A DNA stretch of 35,271 nucleotides from Bacillota bacterium (lineage in GTDB: Bacteria; Bacillota; UBA4882; UBA10575). The notes beneath the pieces are model-generated. The model searched no databases. It saw only the letters and a program-made list of their open reading frames with translations, and was not told where the DNA came from. A program made the translations under genes and the position numbers. The stretch is taken from the NCBI GenBank assembly GCA_012727535.1, contig JAAYGU010000058.1, forward strand, positions 1 through 35,271. Reading direction: 5' to 3'. This document shows positions 6,246 to 19,070 of the stretch, piece by piece (within the stretch, counting starts at the first letter, position 1; every line of letters starts with the position of its first letter).

Positions 6246-6833
6246 ATGAGTAGATGTTCCTGGTGTCTCGGTGATGAGCTGTATATGAAATATCATGATC
6301 AGGAATGGGGGGTTCCGGTTTTTGACGACCGGAAACATTTCGAGTTTTTAGTCCTCGAGGCGGCGCAGGCCGGATTAAGTTGGTTAACTATCCTTAAAAA
6401 GAGGGAAAACTACCGGGAGGCCTATGCCGACTTTGCGCCGGAGGTCGTCGCGGGCTTCTCCGAGCGAGAGATTGATGTTTTATTGAAAAATCAGGGAATC
6501 ATTAGAAACGAGCGGAAGATCCGCGCCTCTATCCATAATGCGCGGTGCTTTCTGGAAGTGCAGGCGGAGTTTGGCAGTTTCAGTGATTATCTGTGGCGGT
6601 TTGTTGATCACCGTCCGGTTGTAAATAACTGGCAAAGCGAGAAAGAGATCCCGGCCCAGACCGCATTGTCGGTTGCAATTGCTCAGGATTTAAAAAAACG
6701 CGGTTTTCAGTTTGTGGGGCCGATTATTATATACGCTCATTTACAGGCGACTGGCTTGGTGAATGACCATATCAGCGCTTGTTTTCGCCATCGACAAATC
6801 CGGGATTTAAACTTATCGCAAATACAAAGATGA
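6246..6833 (+). CDS. tag: DNA-3-methyladenine glycosylase I
   Basis: The 195-residue protein matches Tag over its full length. The zinc-clamp ligands fall at C4, H17, H175 and C179, the same numbers as in Escherichia coli Tag, and the base-pocket residues E38 (VLEAAQAG) and W46 (LSWLTIL) are also at the expected places. It removes 3-methyladenine from alkylated DNA, starting base excision repair. The ATG follows GAGGGAGAAAG. Its stop codon is 13 bases before the predicted ATC start of prs, so the two, with cinA and the next gene, look like one transcript. A -10-like TACAAT at 6192-6197 lacks a clear -35. Confidence 0.95.
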   Translation: MSRCSWCLGDELYMKYHDQEWGVPVFDDRKHFEFLVLEAAQAGLSWLTILKKRENYREAYADFAPEVVAGFSEREIDVLLKNQGIIRNERKIRASIHNARCFLEVQAEFGSFSDYLWRFVDHRPVVNNWQSEKEIPAQTALSVAIAQDLKKRGFQFVGPIIIYAHLQATGLVNDHISACFRHRQIRDLNLSQIQR

Positions 6834-6846
6834 GGGGGAGAAGGAG

Positions 6847-7833
6847 ATCGATACCGGGGAGATAAAAATTTTTGCCGGCAGTTCGGGACGGGCGTTTGCT
6901 GAAGAAATGAGTAATTACTTGGGCATTAAACTGGGGGAGGCTGACACGATTGTTTTCACTGAGGGCAACATTTTTGTCCGGGTTGGTGAGACGGTCCGGG
7001 ACAAAGATGTCTATCTCGTGCAGCCGATTGGCCTCTACCCCAACAAGGAGTTTGTCGAAATCCTCTTTTGGATGGATGCTTTCAAACGGGCGAGTGCTAA
7101 CTCGGTGACGGCGATTATTCCTTATTTTGGCTATGCCAAAGGGGATAAGAAGGATGAACCCCGGGTTTCCATCCGGGCTCGGGTCTGTGCGGAATGTATT
7201 GAGCTGGCGGGCGCTGACCGGATCGTAACGATGGACTTGCATAGTCCGCAGATCCAAGGTTTTTTCAAAAAACCGGTCGATCATCTTTATGCCCTACCAG
7301 TGTTGTGTGAATACATTAAGAGTTTAGGGCTTGAAAATTTGATTGTGGTATCTCCGGATGCCGGTTTTACTAAGCAAGCCCGGAAATTTGCCTCTTATCT
7401 TGGCGTACCGGTGGCGATTGGGGATAAAACCAGAACAGGCCATGACGAACAGGCAGAGGTTCTGGAGATTTTGGGGGATGTGAACGGCCGGAACGTCCTG
7501 GTTGTCGATGATTTTAGCATTACTGGGGGAACCTTGACTACACTGGCCGAGGAGCTGAAAAGGCGCGGTGCGGGCCGGATCTTGGTCACTTTATCCCATA
7601 TTTTATTAAACGAGCAAGCCTTGGCCAAAATTGCAGAGAGCCCGATTGAAATGGTGATCGGCACGGACACGGTTTATAACCCTTACATCAAGGGGGCAAA
7701 TAAGATCAAGATTGTTTCGGTTGCTCCATTGTTTGCCGAGGCGATTGACCGTATTCATAAACGGGAATCGGTCAGCCCGTTGTTCTCTGCGGTGCCCAAG
7801 AAAGTAGTGGACTATAACGGAGTATTAAAATAA
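6847..7833 (+). CDS. prs: Ribose-phosphate pyrophosphokinase, probable ATC start
   Basis: PRPP synthetase makes 5-phosphoribosyl diphosphate from ribose 5-phosphate and ATP for nucleotide, His and Trp synthesis. The 328-residue reading has both phosphoribosyltransferase-like halves: YFGYAKGDKKDEPR and MDLHSPQIQGFF in the first, DKTRTG (flexible-loop area) and the PRPP loop VVDDFSITGGTL in the second. The usual loop is DDxIDTAGT; here the second half reads SITGGT, closer to archaeal versions. The only ATG (6907) would cut off the first strand, GEIKIFAGSS, which the family needs. The frame is open from 6811 and contains no ATG, GTG or TTG before 6907; GGGGGAG (6834-6840) sits six bases before ATC 6847. 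I therefore place the start there. An indel in the G-run is the alternative. Confidence 0.85.
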   Translation: MDTGEIKIFAGSSGRAFAEEMSNYLGIKLGEADTIVFTEGNIFVRVGETVRDKDVYLVQPIGLYPNKEFVEILFWMDAFKRASANSVTAIIPYFGYAKGDKKDEPRVSIRARVCAECIELAGADRIVTMDLHSPQIQGFFKKPVDHLYALPVLCEYIKSLGLENLIVVSPDAGFTKQARKFASYLGVPVAIGDKTRTGHDEQAEVLEILGDVNGRNVLVVDDFSITGGTLTTLAEELKRRGAGRILVTLSHILLNEQALAKIAESPIEMVIGTDTVYNPYIKGANKIKIVSVAPLFAEAIDRIHKRESVSPLFSAVPKKVVDYNGVLK

Positions 7834-7858: not shown

Positions 7859-9118
7859 ATGCGTGCGGAAATCATTTCAGTCGGCACTGAGTTATTACTG
7901 GGACAGATTGTTGATACAAATGCGGTTTTTCTCTCGCGGGAGCTGGCCAACTTAGGGATTGATCTGTATCACCGGACCACAGTCGGGGATAACCCGGAGC
8001 GCTTGCGGCAGGCGCTCGAGGCGGCTTTGGGCCGGGCGGAGTTAGTCATTACCAGCGGGGGCTTGGGCCCGACCGCCGATGACCTGACCAAAGAGATAGT
8101 AGCAGAGGCGCTTGGCTTAGATCTGATTTTGGACCGGCCTTCCTTGGAGCGGATGGAAGCCTACTTTCGGCAGCTGGGCCGGAGAATGACGGAGAACAAT
8201 TATAAACAGGCACTCATTCCGGTGGGCGGCAAGGCGCTGCCGAATCCGCACGGGACGGCACCGGGGGTAGCCGTGCGGTGGAAGGAACGGTTAGTAATCT
8301 GTCTGCCTGGTCCACCGCACGAACTAGAACCAATGTTCCGTACTTATGTCCTCCCGATGCTGCAACAAGAAAAAAGCGGGGTGATCTTCTCCCGAGTGCT
8401 GAAGATCAGTGGACGGGGGGAGAGTGCGGTGGCTGAGGAACTCGCGGATCTACTGGCCGCGCAGAGTAATCCGACGGTTGCGCCCCTGGCTTCCCCGGGT
8501 GAAGTGAAGCTACGCTTGACCGCGCGGGCCGACTCCACCGCGGCGGCAGAAAAACTCATTGCCGGACTGGAGGCCCAGATTCGCGAGCGGTTGGGGTCTT
8601 CCATTTTCGGGGTTGATGACGAGACGATGGAAGAGGTGGTGGTCAGGCTGTTGGCCAACCGCGGGGAGACGCTAGCCGTGGCTGAATCTTGCACCGGCGG
8701 GTTACTAGCTGGACGGTTGACGGAGGTTCCCGGGGCTTCAGCTGTCTTCGAACGCGGCGTGGTTACATACAGTAACCGGTCCAAGGTAGAGCTCTTGGGT
8801 ATCCCGGAGGAAGTGCTCACTGCCTGCGGTGCGGTCAGTCCGGAGGTTGCCCGGCTCATGGCCGCCGGCGTCAAGGAAAAAGCCGGTACCGATTGGGGCA
8901 TCGGTATTACCGGGATTGCCGGCCCTGGCGGGGGAACGGTCGAAAAGCCGGTTGGCCTGGTTTATGTTGGGTTGGAAGGGCCGGAGATCAGTTTGGTTAA
9001 AAAACTGCACTTTCCGGGAACCCGCTCGGCGGTGCGAAGGCGGACGGTCCAGACCGCTCTGGATCTGCTCCGGTTGGAACTGCTTACGAAGCAAAGTTTA
9101 AGTGGGAGGCAGAAGTGA
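7859..9118 (+). CDS. cinA: CinA: nicotinamide-nucleotide/ADP-ribose pyrophosphatase-amidase protein
   Basis: The 419-residue protein is a complete two-domain CinA. The N-terminal MoCF/COG1058 domain (about 1-170) has SVGTELLLGQ and SGGLGPTADD (66-75). The C-terminal PncC-type deamidase domain (about 260-415) has ESCTGG (276-281), YSNRSK and GITGIAGPGGG. The family hydrolyses nicotinamide mononucleotide to nicotinate mononucleotide in pyridine-nucleotide recycling and may split ADP-ribose; some lineages link it to competence. ATG 7859 has AGAAGGTTG upstream. The gene follows prs by 25 bases and its TGA overlaps the start of the next gene, so translation is probably coupled. Confidence 0.95.
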   Translation: MRAEIISVGTELLLGQIVDTNAVFLSRELANLGIDLYHRTTVGDNPERLRQALEAALGRAELVITSGGLGPTADDLTKEIVAEALGLDLILDRPSLERMEAYFRQLGRRMTENNYKQALIPVGGKALPNPHGTAPGVAVRWKERLVICLPGPPHELEPMFRTYVLPMLQQEKSGVIFSRVLKISGRGESAVAEELADLLAAQSNPTVAPLASPGEVKLRLTARADSTAAAEKLIAGLEAQIRERLGSSIFGVDDETMEEVVVRLLANRGETLAVAESCTGGLLAGRLTEVPGASAVFERGVVTYSNRSKVELLGIPEEVLTACGAVSPEVARLMAAGVKEKAGTDWGIGITGIAGPGGGTVEKPVGLVYVGLEGPEISLVKKLHFPGTRSAVRRRTVQTALDLLRLELLTKQSLSGRQK

Positions 9119-13821: not shown

Positions 13822-14108
13822 TAATTTACCAAGTGGCCGGAGACAGAAAGCAAGTTTCTGTTCCGGGGAGTAGAAGAGAATGAAAGTGGCGATGAAGAGT
13901 GAGTAACCGGTAGAAGTTAGTCGCAGAGAGAAAGGCCGTTGGCTGGAAGCCTTTCCTAAGTTTGCCGGTGAAGACCGACTCGGAGCAGATGGTGAATTCA
14001 AGCCAAACGGTTGACACCGTTATCTGTCATGAAGCCGGGTCCTAGACCAACAAGGGTGGAACCGCGGGCCAATTTACCCGTCCCTTACCAGGGACGGGTT
14101 TGTTTTTT
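13822..14108 (+). promoter_or_regulatory. T-box leader controlling the Nudix gene and thrS
   Basis: The roughly 285-base leader has the T-box layout: GATGAAGAGTGAGTA and CGCAGAGAG in stem I, the distal-loop hairpin GGCTGGAAGCC, the specifier region GGTGAAGACCGACTCGGAGC, the T-box core AGGGTGGAACCGCGGG (14053-14068) and a terminator. In the family, uncharged tRNA pairs with the specifier codon and with the T-box bulge, favours the antiterminator and lets transcription pass. ACC (14974 is not in this leader; the codon is at 13974-13976) would read threonine, fitting thrS downstream; GAC (13973-13975) would read aspartate if the register were shifted by one. I favour ACC. Confidence 0.93.
14076..14108 (+). 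terminator. Regulated terminator of the T-box
   Basis: ACCCGTCCC (14076-14084) pairs with GGGACGGGT (14091-14099) around TTACCA and is followed by TTGTTTTTT. The left arm lies eight bases after the T-box core, as expected for mutually exclusive antiterminator and terminator folds. Confidence 0.93.
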
Positions 14109-14136
14109 GAGAGTAGGGGACAGGAGGTGAGCAAAG

Positions 14137-14565
14137 ATCGGGCCAGAAGTTGAAGTATGTGCTGGAGGAGTCGTCTTTGTTGACGGTAAGATAGTGGTGC
14201 TCCGGAGGAAAAATGGGGTTTGGTTAATGCCGAAAGGCCATGTCGATCCGGGTGAAACCCTGGAAGAGGCGGCCTGCCGCGAGGTTTGGGAGGAAACTGG
14301 TCTGCGGGCGGAAATCGGGGCGCCTTTGGGGGAAACCAGGTATTCTTTCACTGAAAATGATACTGTTCACCGGAAGAGGGTGCACTGGTTTTATATGAAG
14401 GCGATCGGCGGGAAGCTGCAGCCGGAGGAGGAGATGTTTACGGAGATCAAACTCCTGACCGAAGAGGAATTAACCACTTTAACTTTTGAGAAAGACCGGA
14501 AACTGGCTAAAGCAGCCTTTGCTCTGTACCGAGAGGAGCGGGGCCGGGGTCCGGTGCCCGGTTGA
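14137..14565 (+). CDS. Nudix hydrolase, probable ATC start
   Basis: The Nudix box is complete: GHVDPGETLEEAACREVWEE followed by TG fits G-x5-E-x7-REUXEEXGU. Such enzymes cut nucleoside diphosphates linked to another group (ADP-ribose, oxidised nucleotides, dinucleoside polyphosphates); the exact substrate is not visible. With the ATC at 14137 the product is 142 residues and begins IGPEVEVCAGGVVFVDGKIVVLRR, which supplies the first strands of the Nudix fold. The frame has a TGA at 14128-14130 and no ATG, GTG or TTG until GTG 14194, which would remove those strands. AGGAGGTGA (14122-14130) lies exactly six bases before the ATC. It is the first gene after the T-box and shares control with thrS 83 bases downstream. 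Confidence 0.85.
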   Translation: MGPEVEVCAGGVVFVDGKIVVLRRKNGVWLMPKGHVDPGETLEEAACREVWEETGLRAEIGAPLGETRYSFTENDTVHRKRVHWFYMKAIGGKLQPEEEMFTEIKLLTEEELTTLTFEKDRKLAKAAFALYREERGRGPVPG

Positions 14566-14648: not shown

Positions 14649-16559
14649 ATGATCAGGCTTAAGCTGCCGAATGGGGTAGAAGAACAAGCCGCTGGAGGCA
14701 TCTCTGGCAAAGAGCTGGTGGCCGGATTAGAGCCGGCTTTAAAAAAGGAGGTAATCTGCCTAAAGGTCGATGGTAACCTAACGGATCTGTCAGCGACACT
14801 GCCCGCCAGGTCCGAAGTGGAGTTGGTCTTACGGTCCGCGCCGGAGGCCTTAGAAGTTTTACGGCATTCGGCCGCGCATATTATGGCGCAGGCGGTAAAG
14901 AGGATCTTTAAAGATGTTAAGCTGGCGATTGGGCCGGCGATTGAGCACGGTTTTTATTACGATTTCGAACTGCCCCGACCGCTGACGCCGGAGGATTTGG
15001 CTGCGATTGAAGCCGAGATGAAGAAGATCGTGAAGGAAGATCTGCCGTTTCAGCGTCGGGTACTCTCGCAGGAGGAGGCCTTAGCCCTCTTGGAGGAGCA
15101 GGGGGAAAAGTTTAAAGTTGAGTTAGTGTCGGAGCTGGACGACCAGGAGATCAGTTTTTATCAGCAGGGAGAGTTCATTGACCTCTGCCGGGGACCGCAT
15201 CTTCCTTCGACCAGATATCTAAAGGTCTTTAAGTTGACCAGTATCGCCGGGGCTTACTGGCGCGGCGATTCCTCGCGCGAGATGTTGCAGCGGATTTACG
15301 GAACGGCGTTTTTCCAGAAGGAGGAGCTAGAAAATTACTTTAAGTTCTTGGAAGAGGCCGCCAAGCGGGACCATCGTAAGCTGGGACGGGAATTGGATTT
15401 ATTCTCAACCAGTGAACAGATTGGCGCTGGGTTGATCCTTTGGCACCCCAAAGGGGGGCGGATCCGCCAGGTGATCGAGGACTTCTGGCGTGAAGAGCAC
15501 CGGAAGAATGGTTACGATCTCGTCTATACGCCTCATCTGGGACGGGGATTGCTCTGGGAGACCAGCGGCCATTTAGACTTTTATCGCGAAAACATGTATT
15601 CCGGGATGGAGATTGATCAGCAGGAATACCTCATTAAACCGATGAACTGCCCCTTCCATATTGAAATTTATAAGAGCCGGAGCCGTTCATACCGGGAGTT
15701 GCCGTTCCGCTGGGCTGAGTTGGGTACGGTCTATCGCTACGAACGCAGTGGTGTCCTGCACGGGCTTTTACGGGTCCGAGGCTTTACGCAGGATGATGCC
15801 CATATTTTTTGCCGCCCCGATCAGATGCCGGCGGAGATCGACCGGGTACTCGAGTTTTGCCTAAAGATTTTGAGAGCGTTCGGATTTACCGATTTTAAAC
15901 TATATTTGGCCACCCGGCCGGAGAAATCGGTCGGTTCGGAAGAAAGATGGGAAGCAGCTACCGCTGCTCTAAGGGCGGCGATCGAAAAGGCCGGCTTGCC
16001 TTTTGCCGTGGATGAAGGGGGCGGCGCTTTTTACGGACCAAAGATCGACTTGAAGATTAAAGATGCTTTGGGGCGGGAATGGCAGTGTTCAACCATCCAG
16101 TTTGATTTTAATGAGCCGGAGCGCTTCGGCCTGACCTACAAAGGAGCAGACAGCCAGGACCATCAGCCTTATATGATCCACCGGGCTCTTCTGGGTTCAC
16201 TAGAGCGTTTCTTTGGTATCCTGGTGGAACACTATGAAGGTGCTTTTCCCTTATGGCTTGCTCCGGTGCAAGCGCTGGTCATTCCAGTCTTGCCAGCGAA
16301 TTTGGAGTATGCCGAGGCGGTCTGTCACTGGTTACAAGCCAACGGCATCCGGGCAGAAGTCGACGGCCGGAACGAAAAGATCGGCTACCGGATCCGCGAA
16401 GCACAGTTGCAGAAGGTCCCCTATATGTTGGTGGTTGGGGAACAAGAAGCCAGCGAGGGTAAGGTTGCGGTACGGACCAGAAAAGAAGGAGATCTGGGCG
16501 TTTGGGAGCGGGAGGCTTTGCTCCAGCGGATGCAGGAAGAGATTGCCCAGAAAAGTTAA
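14649..16559 (+). CDS. thrS: Threonyl-tRNA synthetase
   Basis: The 636-residue protein has the TGS domain (about 1-62), the editing domain with H73 and H77 (RHSAAHIMA) and C180 and H184 (DLCRGPH), the class II catalytic core and the anticodon-binding domain (about 540-636). The catalytic zinc ligands are C334 (PMNCPFH), H385 (DDAHIF) and H511 (MIHRALLGS), and R363 lies in motif 2 (VYRYERSG); these numbers equal those of the Escherichia coli enzyme. It charges tRNA-Thr and clears mischarged serine. ATG 14649 follows AGAAGGAGGAAGAAG. It is the main target of the T-box upstream, with the Nudix gene cotranscribed. Confidence 0.98.
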   Translation: MIRLKLPNGVEEQAAGGISGKELVAGLEPALKKEVICLKVDGNLTDLSATLPARSEVELVLRSAPEALEVLRHSAAHIMAQAVKRIFKDVKLAIGPAIEHGFYYDFELPRPLTPEDLAAIEAEMKKIVKEDLPFQRRVLSQEEALALLEEQGEKFKVELVSELDDQEISFYQQGEFIDLCRGPHLPSTRYLKVFKLTSIAGAYWRGDSSREMLQRIYGTAFFQKEELENYFKFLEEAAKRDHRKLGRELDLFSTSEQIGAGLILWHPKGGRIRQVIEDFWREEHRKNGYDLVYTPHLGRGLLWETSGHLDFYRENMYSGMEIDQQEYLIKPMNCPFHIEIYKSRSRSYRELPFRWAELGTVYRYERSGVLHGLLRVRGFTQDDAHIFCRPDQMPAEIDRVLEFCLKILRAFGFTDFKLYLATRPEKSVGSEERWEAATAALRAAIEKAGLPFAVDEGGGAFYGPKIDLKIKDALGREWQCSTIQFDFNEPERFGLTYKGADSQDHQPYMIHRALLGSLERFFGILVEHYEGAFPLWLAPVQALVIPVLPANLEYAEAVCHWLQANGIRAEVDGRNEKIGYRIREAQLQKVPYMLVVGEQEASEGKVAVRTRKEGDLGVWEREALLQRMQEEIAQKS

Positions 16560-17420: not shown

Positions 17421-19070
17421 ATGAAACTTGACGAGCGGCGGCGTGATGAGGAACGGCTGCGGGCCGTAGTGGAGTTTGCCCATAATGTGCTCACCCAGGG
17501 GCGGGATCGTTACCGAGCGAAACCGACTCCCCTGCTGGCCGATGGGCTAAAGGTTGATACTGGAGAGCATATCACCTGGAGAGTAGCGGGAGGCAGGGAG
17601 ATTATCCTCTCCAATCTGGCCAGTCAACAAGTTTTGTTACGGGTGCTGACCGGATTGAGCAACCTCACGGGGGAGATCGGGTTTAAAGCGGCGGGGGAAG
17701 CGGTTCTACGTTATCATTTTGCTCATCTAACGGACAGTAGTGGTTTGTTGCAATGGGGCGGTCACCGGGTAATTGACCTGAAAACCTTGAGGGTCGACGG
17801 GCCGGAGAATAAGGGGTTGGTGCATGAGTTAAAAAACCATTTTCCCTTTTATGATCTGATGTTTGCGGTCAACCCGGCAGCTACGCGTAGGTTAATTGGT
17901 GCGATCTGGAATGCCCACCTCCATGACTGGGCGAATCTGGAGCTCAGCCGGCACGGCCGGTATGGGTTGTCGCCTGGCCTACTCTGGGAGCATCCTTTTC
18001 ATGATCCGCCGCCGTTTAGGGAGACCCGCGGTCTTTCTTTTCTCCCGACCGGTAATGATCTGATCTATGCGGCTGGTCGCCTTTATAAGCATACGGGCTA
18101 TCTCCCTGCCCTGGTCTGGGCCAAGAGGCTGGCCTGGATGTTTGTTAAAGCACGACACCCTCAAACCCGGCTTGGGGTCTATCAATACACGCAGGCTCTA
18201 AAGCAGGAAGAGGCGGAGATCGCCCCGGAGGATCCGCGTTTTAGCCTCTCCTGTTATGGGGACCGGGCAAAACGCCAGTTGGGTCCAGAATTGGGCCCCG
18301 ACGCGCTGGAAGGAAATATGCTGCTGCCCAGGAAAGCCCGGTCGATTTATGTGATTAATACCCTGATGGAGCTGGAACTGGCTGAAGAGCTGGGGGCAGA
18401 AGCCAGGGAGTTCGTGGCGTGGGTGCATGAAGGAATGTTAGCTTATGCCAAGTATGCCTACCTTCCGGAGACCAATCAGTTGAAACCAATGTTGGCGAAT
18501 GGTACGGATCTATCCGGTTATAAGTTACCGCGCAGCGGGTACTACGGCCGCGCGGGAACGGTCCTGCAGCGTTCTCCGGCCGGGGGGGATTTTTTACATG
18601 CTTACGCGCGTACTTATCGTTTGACCGGCGATCCCGATCTCTGGACGGTCGTACGCCAGATCGGGCAGGGGCTTGGCCTAGGCGACTTGGGTTTTCGTCC
18701 CGGCGATAAGGTACAGCTTGCTCTGGAAACCAGAGAGGCGGATTATCGGATCCTCTTTGCTTTGTTGGAGATTTACCGGACAATACCCCACCGGGCTTAC
18801 CTGGCTTTAGCCCGGAGAGTGGGGGATAATATCCTGCGGAGTAAATTCCGCCACGGCTACTTTTTGCGGCAGCCTGATTGTCTTTATGCCGAGTTTAACG
18901 CCGTCGAACCGTTGGCCTTGTTAGCCCTGGAAGCAACGATCCGGGGAACCCCTGAACTGGTACCCGGGTATTTGGCGGCTGGTTATCTCACCGGTGATTA
19001 CGAAGAGCTGGACGGGACCGTCCATGGCCTCTATGGGGGAGAATTATACGAGCGCAGCCGGATGTCATAG
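17421..19070 (+). CDS. Cytoplasmic family-2 (PL2) pectate lyase
   Basis: The 549-residue protein has no signal peptide and looks like an alpha/alpha toroid. In the PL2 structure I recall (Yersinia YePL2A) metal ligands are H109, E130 and H172 and the base is R171. Here H115 (WGGHRVI), E136 (VHELKNH), R177 and H178 (LSRHGRY) have the same spacing, 21, 41 and 1 residues. PL2 enzymes are intracellular, transition-metal-dependent exolyases that split oligogalacturonates by beta-elimination after import (PelW type). ATG 17421 follows GGGAGGAG (17408-17415); an earlier start at 17334 would overlap the promoter. The gene has its own promoter and no pectin transporter beside it. Family identity is inferred from this spacing plus general resemblance, not from a database search. 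Confidence 0.75.
   Translation: MKLDERRRDEERLRAVVEFAHNVLTQGRDRYRAKPTPLLADGLKVDTGEHITWRVAGGREIILSNLASQQVLLRVLTGLSNLTGEIGFKAAGEAVLRYHFAHLTDSSGLLQWGGHRVIDLKTLRVDGPENKGLVHELKNHFPFYDLMFAVNPAATRRLIGAIWNAHLHDWANLELSRHGRYGLSPGLLWEHPFHDPPPFRETRGLSFLPTGNDLIYAAGRLYKHTGYLPALVWAKRLAWMFVKARHPQTRLGVYQYTQALKQEEAEIAPEDPRFSLSCYGDRAKRQLGPELGPDALEGNMLLPRKARSIYVINTLMELELAEELGAEAREFVAWVHEGMLAYAKYAYLPETNQLKPMLANGTDLSGYKLPRSGYYGRAGTVLQRSPAGGDFLHAYARTYRLTGDPDLWTVVRQIGQGLGLGDLGFRPGDKVQLALETREADYRILFALLEIYRTIPHRAYLALARRVGDNILRSKFRHGYFLRQPDCLYAEFNAVEPLALLALEATIRGTPELVPGYLAAGYLTGDYEELDGTVHGLYGGELYERSRMS

Follow-up and report, generated by a model that had tools for sequence, protein, structure and literature searches.

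Within the window, the 35,271-nt stretch of DNA from an uncultured Bacillota bacterium analyzed here, a gene for a class I-like PRPP synthetase, which we refer to as prs2 (6847–7833), lies between tag, which encodes DNA-3-methyladenine glycosylase I (6246–6833; Pfam PF03352, 270 bits), and cinA (7859–9118; NF001813, 548 bits), with all features of the locus on the forward strand. The predicted 328-residue product of prs2 matches NF002320 (340.3 bits, cut-off 297) and TIGR01251 (319.3 bits, cut-off 113) over its full length. The TGA stop codon of tag (6831–6833) ends 13 nt before an ATC codon at 6847–6849, the inferred start of prs2, and is overlapped by an ATG at 6830–6832 (ATGA) that is out of frame with prs2. 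Between stop and ATC lies the Shine-Dalgarno (SD) sequence GGGGGAG (6834–6840, with its GGAG core at 6837–6840). In the prs2 frame, a TAA at 6808–6810 is followed by an open reading frame from 6811 to 7833, which reads ACT TAT CGC AAA TAC AAA GAT GAG GGG GAG AAG GAG ATC up to the ATC and GAT ACC GGG GAG ATA AAA ATT TTT GCC GGC after it. The first in-frame ATG, GTG or TTG is the ATG at 6907–6909, which encodes residue 21 when the ATC-equivalent codon is counted as residue 1. The initial annotation had described this frame, open from 6811 and free of canonical starts ahead of 6907, as well as the GGGGGAG sequence six bases before the ATC, and the codon listing confirmed both.

To place prs2 among known enzymes, we compared it with class I PRPP synthetases (PDB 1dkr, 5t3o, 7pn0). 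The protein is homologous over its full length and keeps the Lys and Arg of the flexible loop, with K194 and R196 invariant in an alignment with the canonical copy described below. The Pfam PF13793 match begins at model position 1, which corresponds to codon 6862. The prs2 clade differs from these enzymes in carrying DDFSITGGTL at the PRPP loop and in being only about 41% identical to the canonical copy. That canonical prs gene lies on another contig of the same genome (G000:C67:1046–1978; 41% identity to prs2), so prs2 is a second, paralogous prs rather than the sole one of its genome. Of the six genera in the 16 genomes of the family that we examined, three carry prs2-type genes. Both kinds of prs are present in genera g1 and g6, and each of the three genomes of genus g3 (G003, G008 and G010; 94–97% complete) has a prs2-type gene as its sole Prs match. 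This pattern suggests that a prs2-type gene can serve as a PRPP synthetase, and members of the divergent clade may take the place of canonical Prs in these three genomes.

We then compared the window's genome (G000, a draft of 150 contigs) with that of a sister species (G001, a separate metagenome assembly), these being the two species compared within the genus. The G001 copy of prs2 (JAKOVI010000052.1) is 94% identical to that of the window in protein and 87% in DNA, and its start region reads AAA TAA AAG GAT GAG GGG GAG AAG AAG ATC GAT ACC GGG GAG ATT AAA ATT. It has the same run of five G, the same SD sequence and the same ATC, and again no canonical start before the internal ATG; its in-frame TAA closes the prs2 frame 21 nt upstream of the ATC. 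Differences between the two genes fall 14, 10 and 101 times on first, second and third codon positions (101 of 125 on the third), and dN/dS (NG86) is 0.030/0.676, or ∼0.045. For the 20 codons ahead of ATG 6907 the corresponding counts are 1, 0 and 7 (P ∼ 0.003 against no codon structure). These substitution patterns indicate strong purifying selection on prs2 that extends to the 20 codons preceding ATG 6907, evolutionary evidence that the protein is translated from upstream of its first canonical start. Special constraint on the 33-nt start region itself was not significant in this pair, as 5.5% of windows were equally conserved.

Alignment with orthologs placed the ATC in a wider context. All 82 other orthologs have ATG, GTG or TTG at residues −2 to 2, and only this genus lacks one; the 79 distinct start regions comprise 54 ATG, 19 TTG and 6 GTG, with starts chosen by SD sequence and by our own judgement. 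The commonest start position is the ATC-equivalent codon or the codon before it. Met occupies residue 21 in 68 of the 84 orthologs examined, among them those that have a start of their own upstream. The initial annotation had proposed aligning orthologous starts to see whether ATC is conserved: it is kept in the sister species, but the other 82 orthologs are canonical. The nearest ortholog, in G006, shares the gene order tag-prs2-cinA with the window and G001 and reads AAGGAGGAGAAG ATG ATC, with its ATG exactly one codon earlier than the ATC. In this genus the corresponding sequence is GAG GGG GAG AAG (AAG or GAG) ATC; hence the position of the G006 ATG is occupied by GAG in the window (6844–6846) and by AAG, one base from ATG, in G001. 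The non-canonical start is thus found in both species of the genus and not in the other genera (ATG in G006, TTG in g3). Because the SD core lies 3 nt further downstream in this genus than in G006, AUC gets the spacing that ATG has in G006. The varying position 6844 beside an unvarying ATC likewise fits AUC as the start. Predicted anti-SD duplex energies were −12.4 kcal/mol for the prs2 ATC, −12.7 for the G006 ATG start, −9.2 for tag and −7.6 for cinA, as opposed to −1.1 for ATG 6830 and −4.0 for ATG 6907. The earlier observation that ATG 6830 overlaps the tag stop without a ribosome site of its own is consistent with these values and with its position one frame off prs2.

Each of the other ways to read this locus has to account for the same features. 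One more G in the G-run would give MRGEKEIDTGEIKIF and make ATG 6830 the real start, a sequencing or assembly error that the initial annotation had considered. This is geometrically possible, and the draft contains other suspicious single-base stops, such as a TAA at codon 4 of rpsD. However, the independently assembled G001, from another species, has an identical GATGAGGGGGAGAAG with five G, so that the same indel error would be needed twice; moreover, ATG 6830 has no SD sequence, and the good one located further downstream is suitably spaced for ATC. We consider a missing G very unlikely. A start at ATG 6907, which had also been raised and would yield a 308-residue protein, has in its favor that this is the only canonical in-frame start. 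It would nevertheless sacrifice the first β strand and the first 15 positions of PF13793 and use a weak SD sequence at a codon that is an internal Met in orthologs with an upstream start. The almost exclusively third-position divergence of the preceding codons contradicts it as well, which makes this start exceedingly improbable. Even less credible, to the point of being nearly negligible, is that a prs2 without a start is a decaying pseudogene. While a canonical prs is present in the same genome, the loss of the start is common to both species and yet the differences remain concentrated on third positions at a low dN/dS, with the reading frame intact and the catalytic K194 and R196 kept.

Other near-cognate codons lie in frame between the upstream stop and the domain, namely AAG 6841, AUA/AUU 6862 and, in G001, AAG 6844. 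Yet AAG 6841 touches the SD sequence, codon 6844 is GAG in the window, and codon 6862 varies between AUA and AUU and is directly abutted by the only conserved SD-like sequence before it, GGGGAG. Only the ATC is identical in both species at an SD spacing of 5–6 nt, leaving the use of another near-cognate codon a small chance. Lastly, programmed frameshifting could in principle connect the frames, either by restart at ATG 6830 followed by a −1 slip or RNA polymerase slippage on the G5 run, or by a +1 shift at the tag stop that would give a Tag-Prs fusion. Both species keep the ATGA overlap and the G5 run. Chance alone, however, would produce an ATGA at roughly one in four TGA stops, and five G are short for slippage. 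Neither a slippery heptamer nor a stop-context shift site is visible at the locus. In addition, the frame of ATG 6830 ends after 11 codons in the window (MRGRRRSIPGR*) and runs on in G001, so its length is not conserved. The odds of a frameshift thus appear very slim.

With these readings weighed, prs2 is very probably a functional second PRPP synthetase translated from AUC 6847 with GGGGGAG as its SD sequence, and the initiation at ATC proposed in the initial annotation is well supported by the same ATC and SD sequence, again without a canonical start, in G001. Against AUC, this codon belongs to the weak starts of E. coli, the ATC could in principle be kept as an amino acid position, and the comparison within the genus covers two species. 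In the mechanism that we propose, the ordinary initiator fMet-tRNA would read AUC 6847 by third-base mispairing, with GGGGGAG at normal spacing permitting initiation there. The search for initiator-type tRNA patterns gave only one match that folds as a tRNA, a tRNA-Met whose anticodon is the normal CAT. We also considered a variant initiator tRNA, and no form with a GAT anticodon was found; a second pattern match was not a tRNA. An ancestral ATG one codon earlier, as kept in G006, would have changed to AAG or GAG and the neighboring AUC would have taken over, making GAG 6844–6846 the probable lost canonical start. Initiation at AUC would be weak, probably at most ∼10% of that at AUG. IF3 is expected to discriminate against AUC and to make prs2 initiation IF3-sensitive; such control is plausible, and infC itself has AUU or AUA here. 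Ribosomes ending tag 13 nt upstream possibly help. As a result, an auxiliary enzyme would be made in small amounts in addition to canonical Prs. The earlier suggestion that AUC keeps PRPP synthesis low is tenable for this auxiliary enzyme but not for the total supply, which AUC alone cannot set because of the canonical prs on another contig.

The putative AUC start can be compared with several known systems. Translation of infC from AUU in E. coli and AUA in S. aureus likewise uses an AUH near-cognate start behind a strong SD sequence, but infC is translation's own autoregulated gene, whereas prs2 encodes a metabolic enzyme, uses AUC and is non-canonical in one genus only. The S. aureus genes cvfC1, ccpN and citZ are also Bacillota genes with a non-AUG AUH start and an extended SD sequence (PMC13009471). 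They differ from prs2 in the start codon and in having the extended AGGAGGUG rather than the G-rich GGGGGAG. Reporters for conserved AUU and AUA starts in S. aureus gave ∼10% of the AUG level, with ccpN reaching up to 30% in rich medium (PMC13009471). E. coli pcnB, with an AUU start (Binns and Masters 2002, as cited in PMC13009471), is similarly an enzyme gene on the chromosome that is held back by its inefficient start codon, although it uses AUU, belongs to another organism and is not a second copy of an enzyme. For E. coli, AUU is quoted at ∼0.3% of AUG (64-codon data of Hecht 2017, as cited in PMC10666635). Initiation at non-canonical codons is inhibited when the IF3 level rises (PMC2268962). 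Reinitiation in E. coli at a distance of 13 nt is reduced, not abolished (PMC10666635), and since the tag stop lies at this distance, coupling may add to prs2 expression. We read prs2 as a likely new case in an established class, in which a strong SD sequence rescues a weak AUH start. No bacterial prs starting at AUC turned up in our literature searches. To our knowledge, natural AUC starts in bacteria are rarely documented.

A second AUC-start candidate in the window is a Nudix hydrolase gene (14137–14565, forward strand; PF00293, 80 bits) with its start at ATC 14137–14139. Its start region reads AGGAGGTGA GCA AAG ATC GGG CCA GAA, where AGGAGGTGA (14122–14130, forward strand) is an extended SD sequence that contains an in-frame TGA (14128–14130). 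The first canonical start, GTG 14194, is located inside the domain, 19 codons into the protein, and the same holds in G001. The first 19 codons differ between the two species at three sites, all third-position. In other genera, AUA AUA, ACG AUC, AUC AUC or AUG occupies the place of the start, and the sole other nearby in-frame canonical codon is sometimes a GTG inside the SD sequence. In the window and in G001 alike, AUC appears to be the start of the Nudix gene. A T-box leader (RF00230, 96.8 bits, 13883–14088 of the window) precedes both the Nudix gene and a gene at 14649 for a class II tRNA synthetase, which is probably thrS.

Turning to the remainder of the genome, we considered AUC starts throughout the lineage and set the idea aside, as few strong genes have coding sequence ahead of their first canonical start (538 genes predicted on ∼686 kb). 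Among 69 genes compared with their G001 orthologs, convincing coding ahead of the first canonical start in both species was seen only for prs2 and for the Nudix gene. The infC gene starts behind AGGAGG with ATT in G000, ATA in G001 and ATT in G006 and G021, in keeping with infC of other bacteria. A tentative and rather doubtful proposal is that this Bacillota family repeatedly employs AUH starts, AUC among them, to control genes besides infC, at least prs2 and the T-box-linked Nudix gene using AUC in both species of the genus; changes in IF3 level would then retune a small set of genes together. Two loci of G000 were recorded in this context. At L147 (G000:C12; ∼11974, minus strand), a GNAT acetyltransferase frame has AAGGAG followed by ATT ATA, with 16 codons lacking a canonical start, and is possibly a further AUH start. 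At L181 (G000:C47; 10759), the N-terminal domain of a tyrosine recombinase precedes the first canonical start by ∼15 codons, and CTG behind GAGAGGTGATC is a possible start.

Because conserved genes of G000 contain in-frame stops, readings from this single genome need a second one, which is available for both prs2 and the Nudix gene. For instance, codon 4 of rpsD (L158, G000:C24; ∼18513–18515, minus strand) is TAA (MAR*TGSV), whereas it is TAT in G001 and other relatives; an assembly error or a mixture of strains is the likely cause. A single in-frame TAG interrupts conserved-looking genes at L156 (∼10895), L165 (∼11274) and L194 (∼1971), which by eye encode a serine acetyltransferase, a radical SAM protein and a dipicolinate synthase subunit, respectively. 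These TAGs may be draft errors, pseudogenes or readthrough sites. TAG is a common stop in G000, ending 66 of 384 genes.

Gene finders limited to ATG, GTG and TTG would misplace such starts downstream, here giving a truncated 308-residue protein. A pair of species with a putative AUC start beside a relative that keeps ATG would also offer a clean case of how genes survive the loss of their start codon. Lastly, if prs2 expression is IF3-sensitive, an accessory PRPP synthetase would be tied to the levels of initiation factors.
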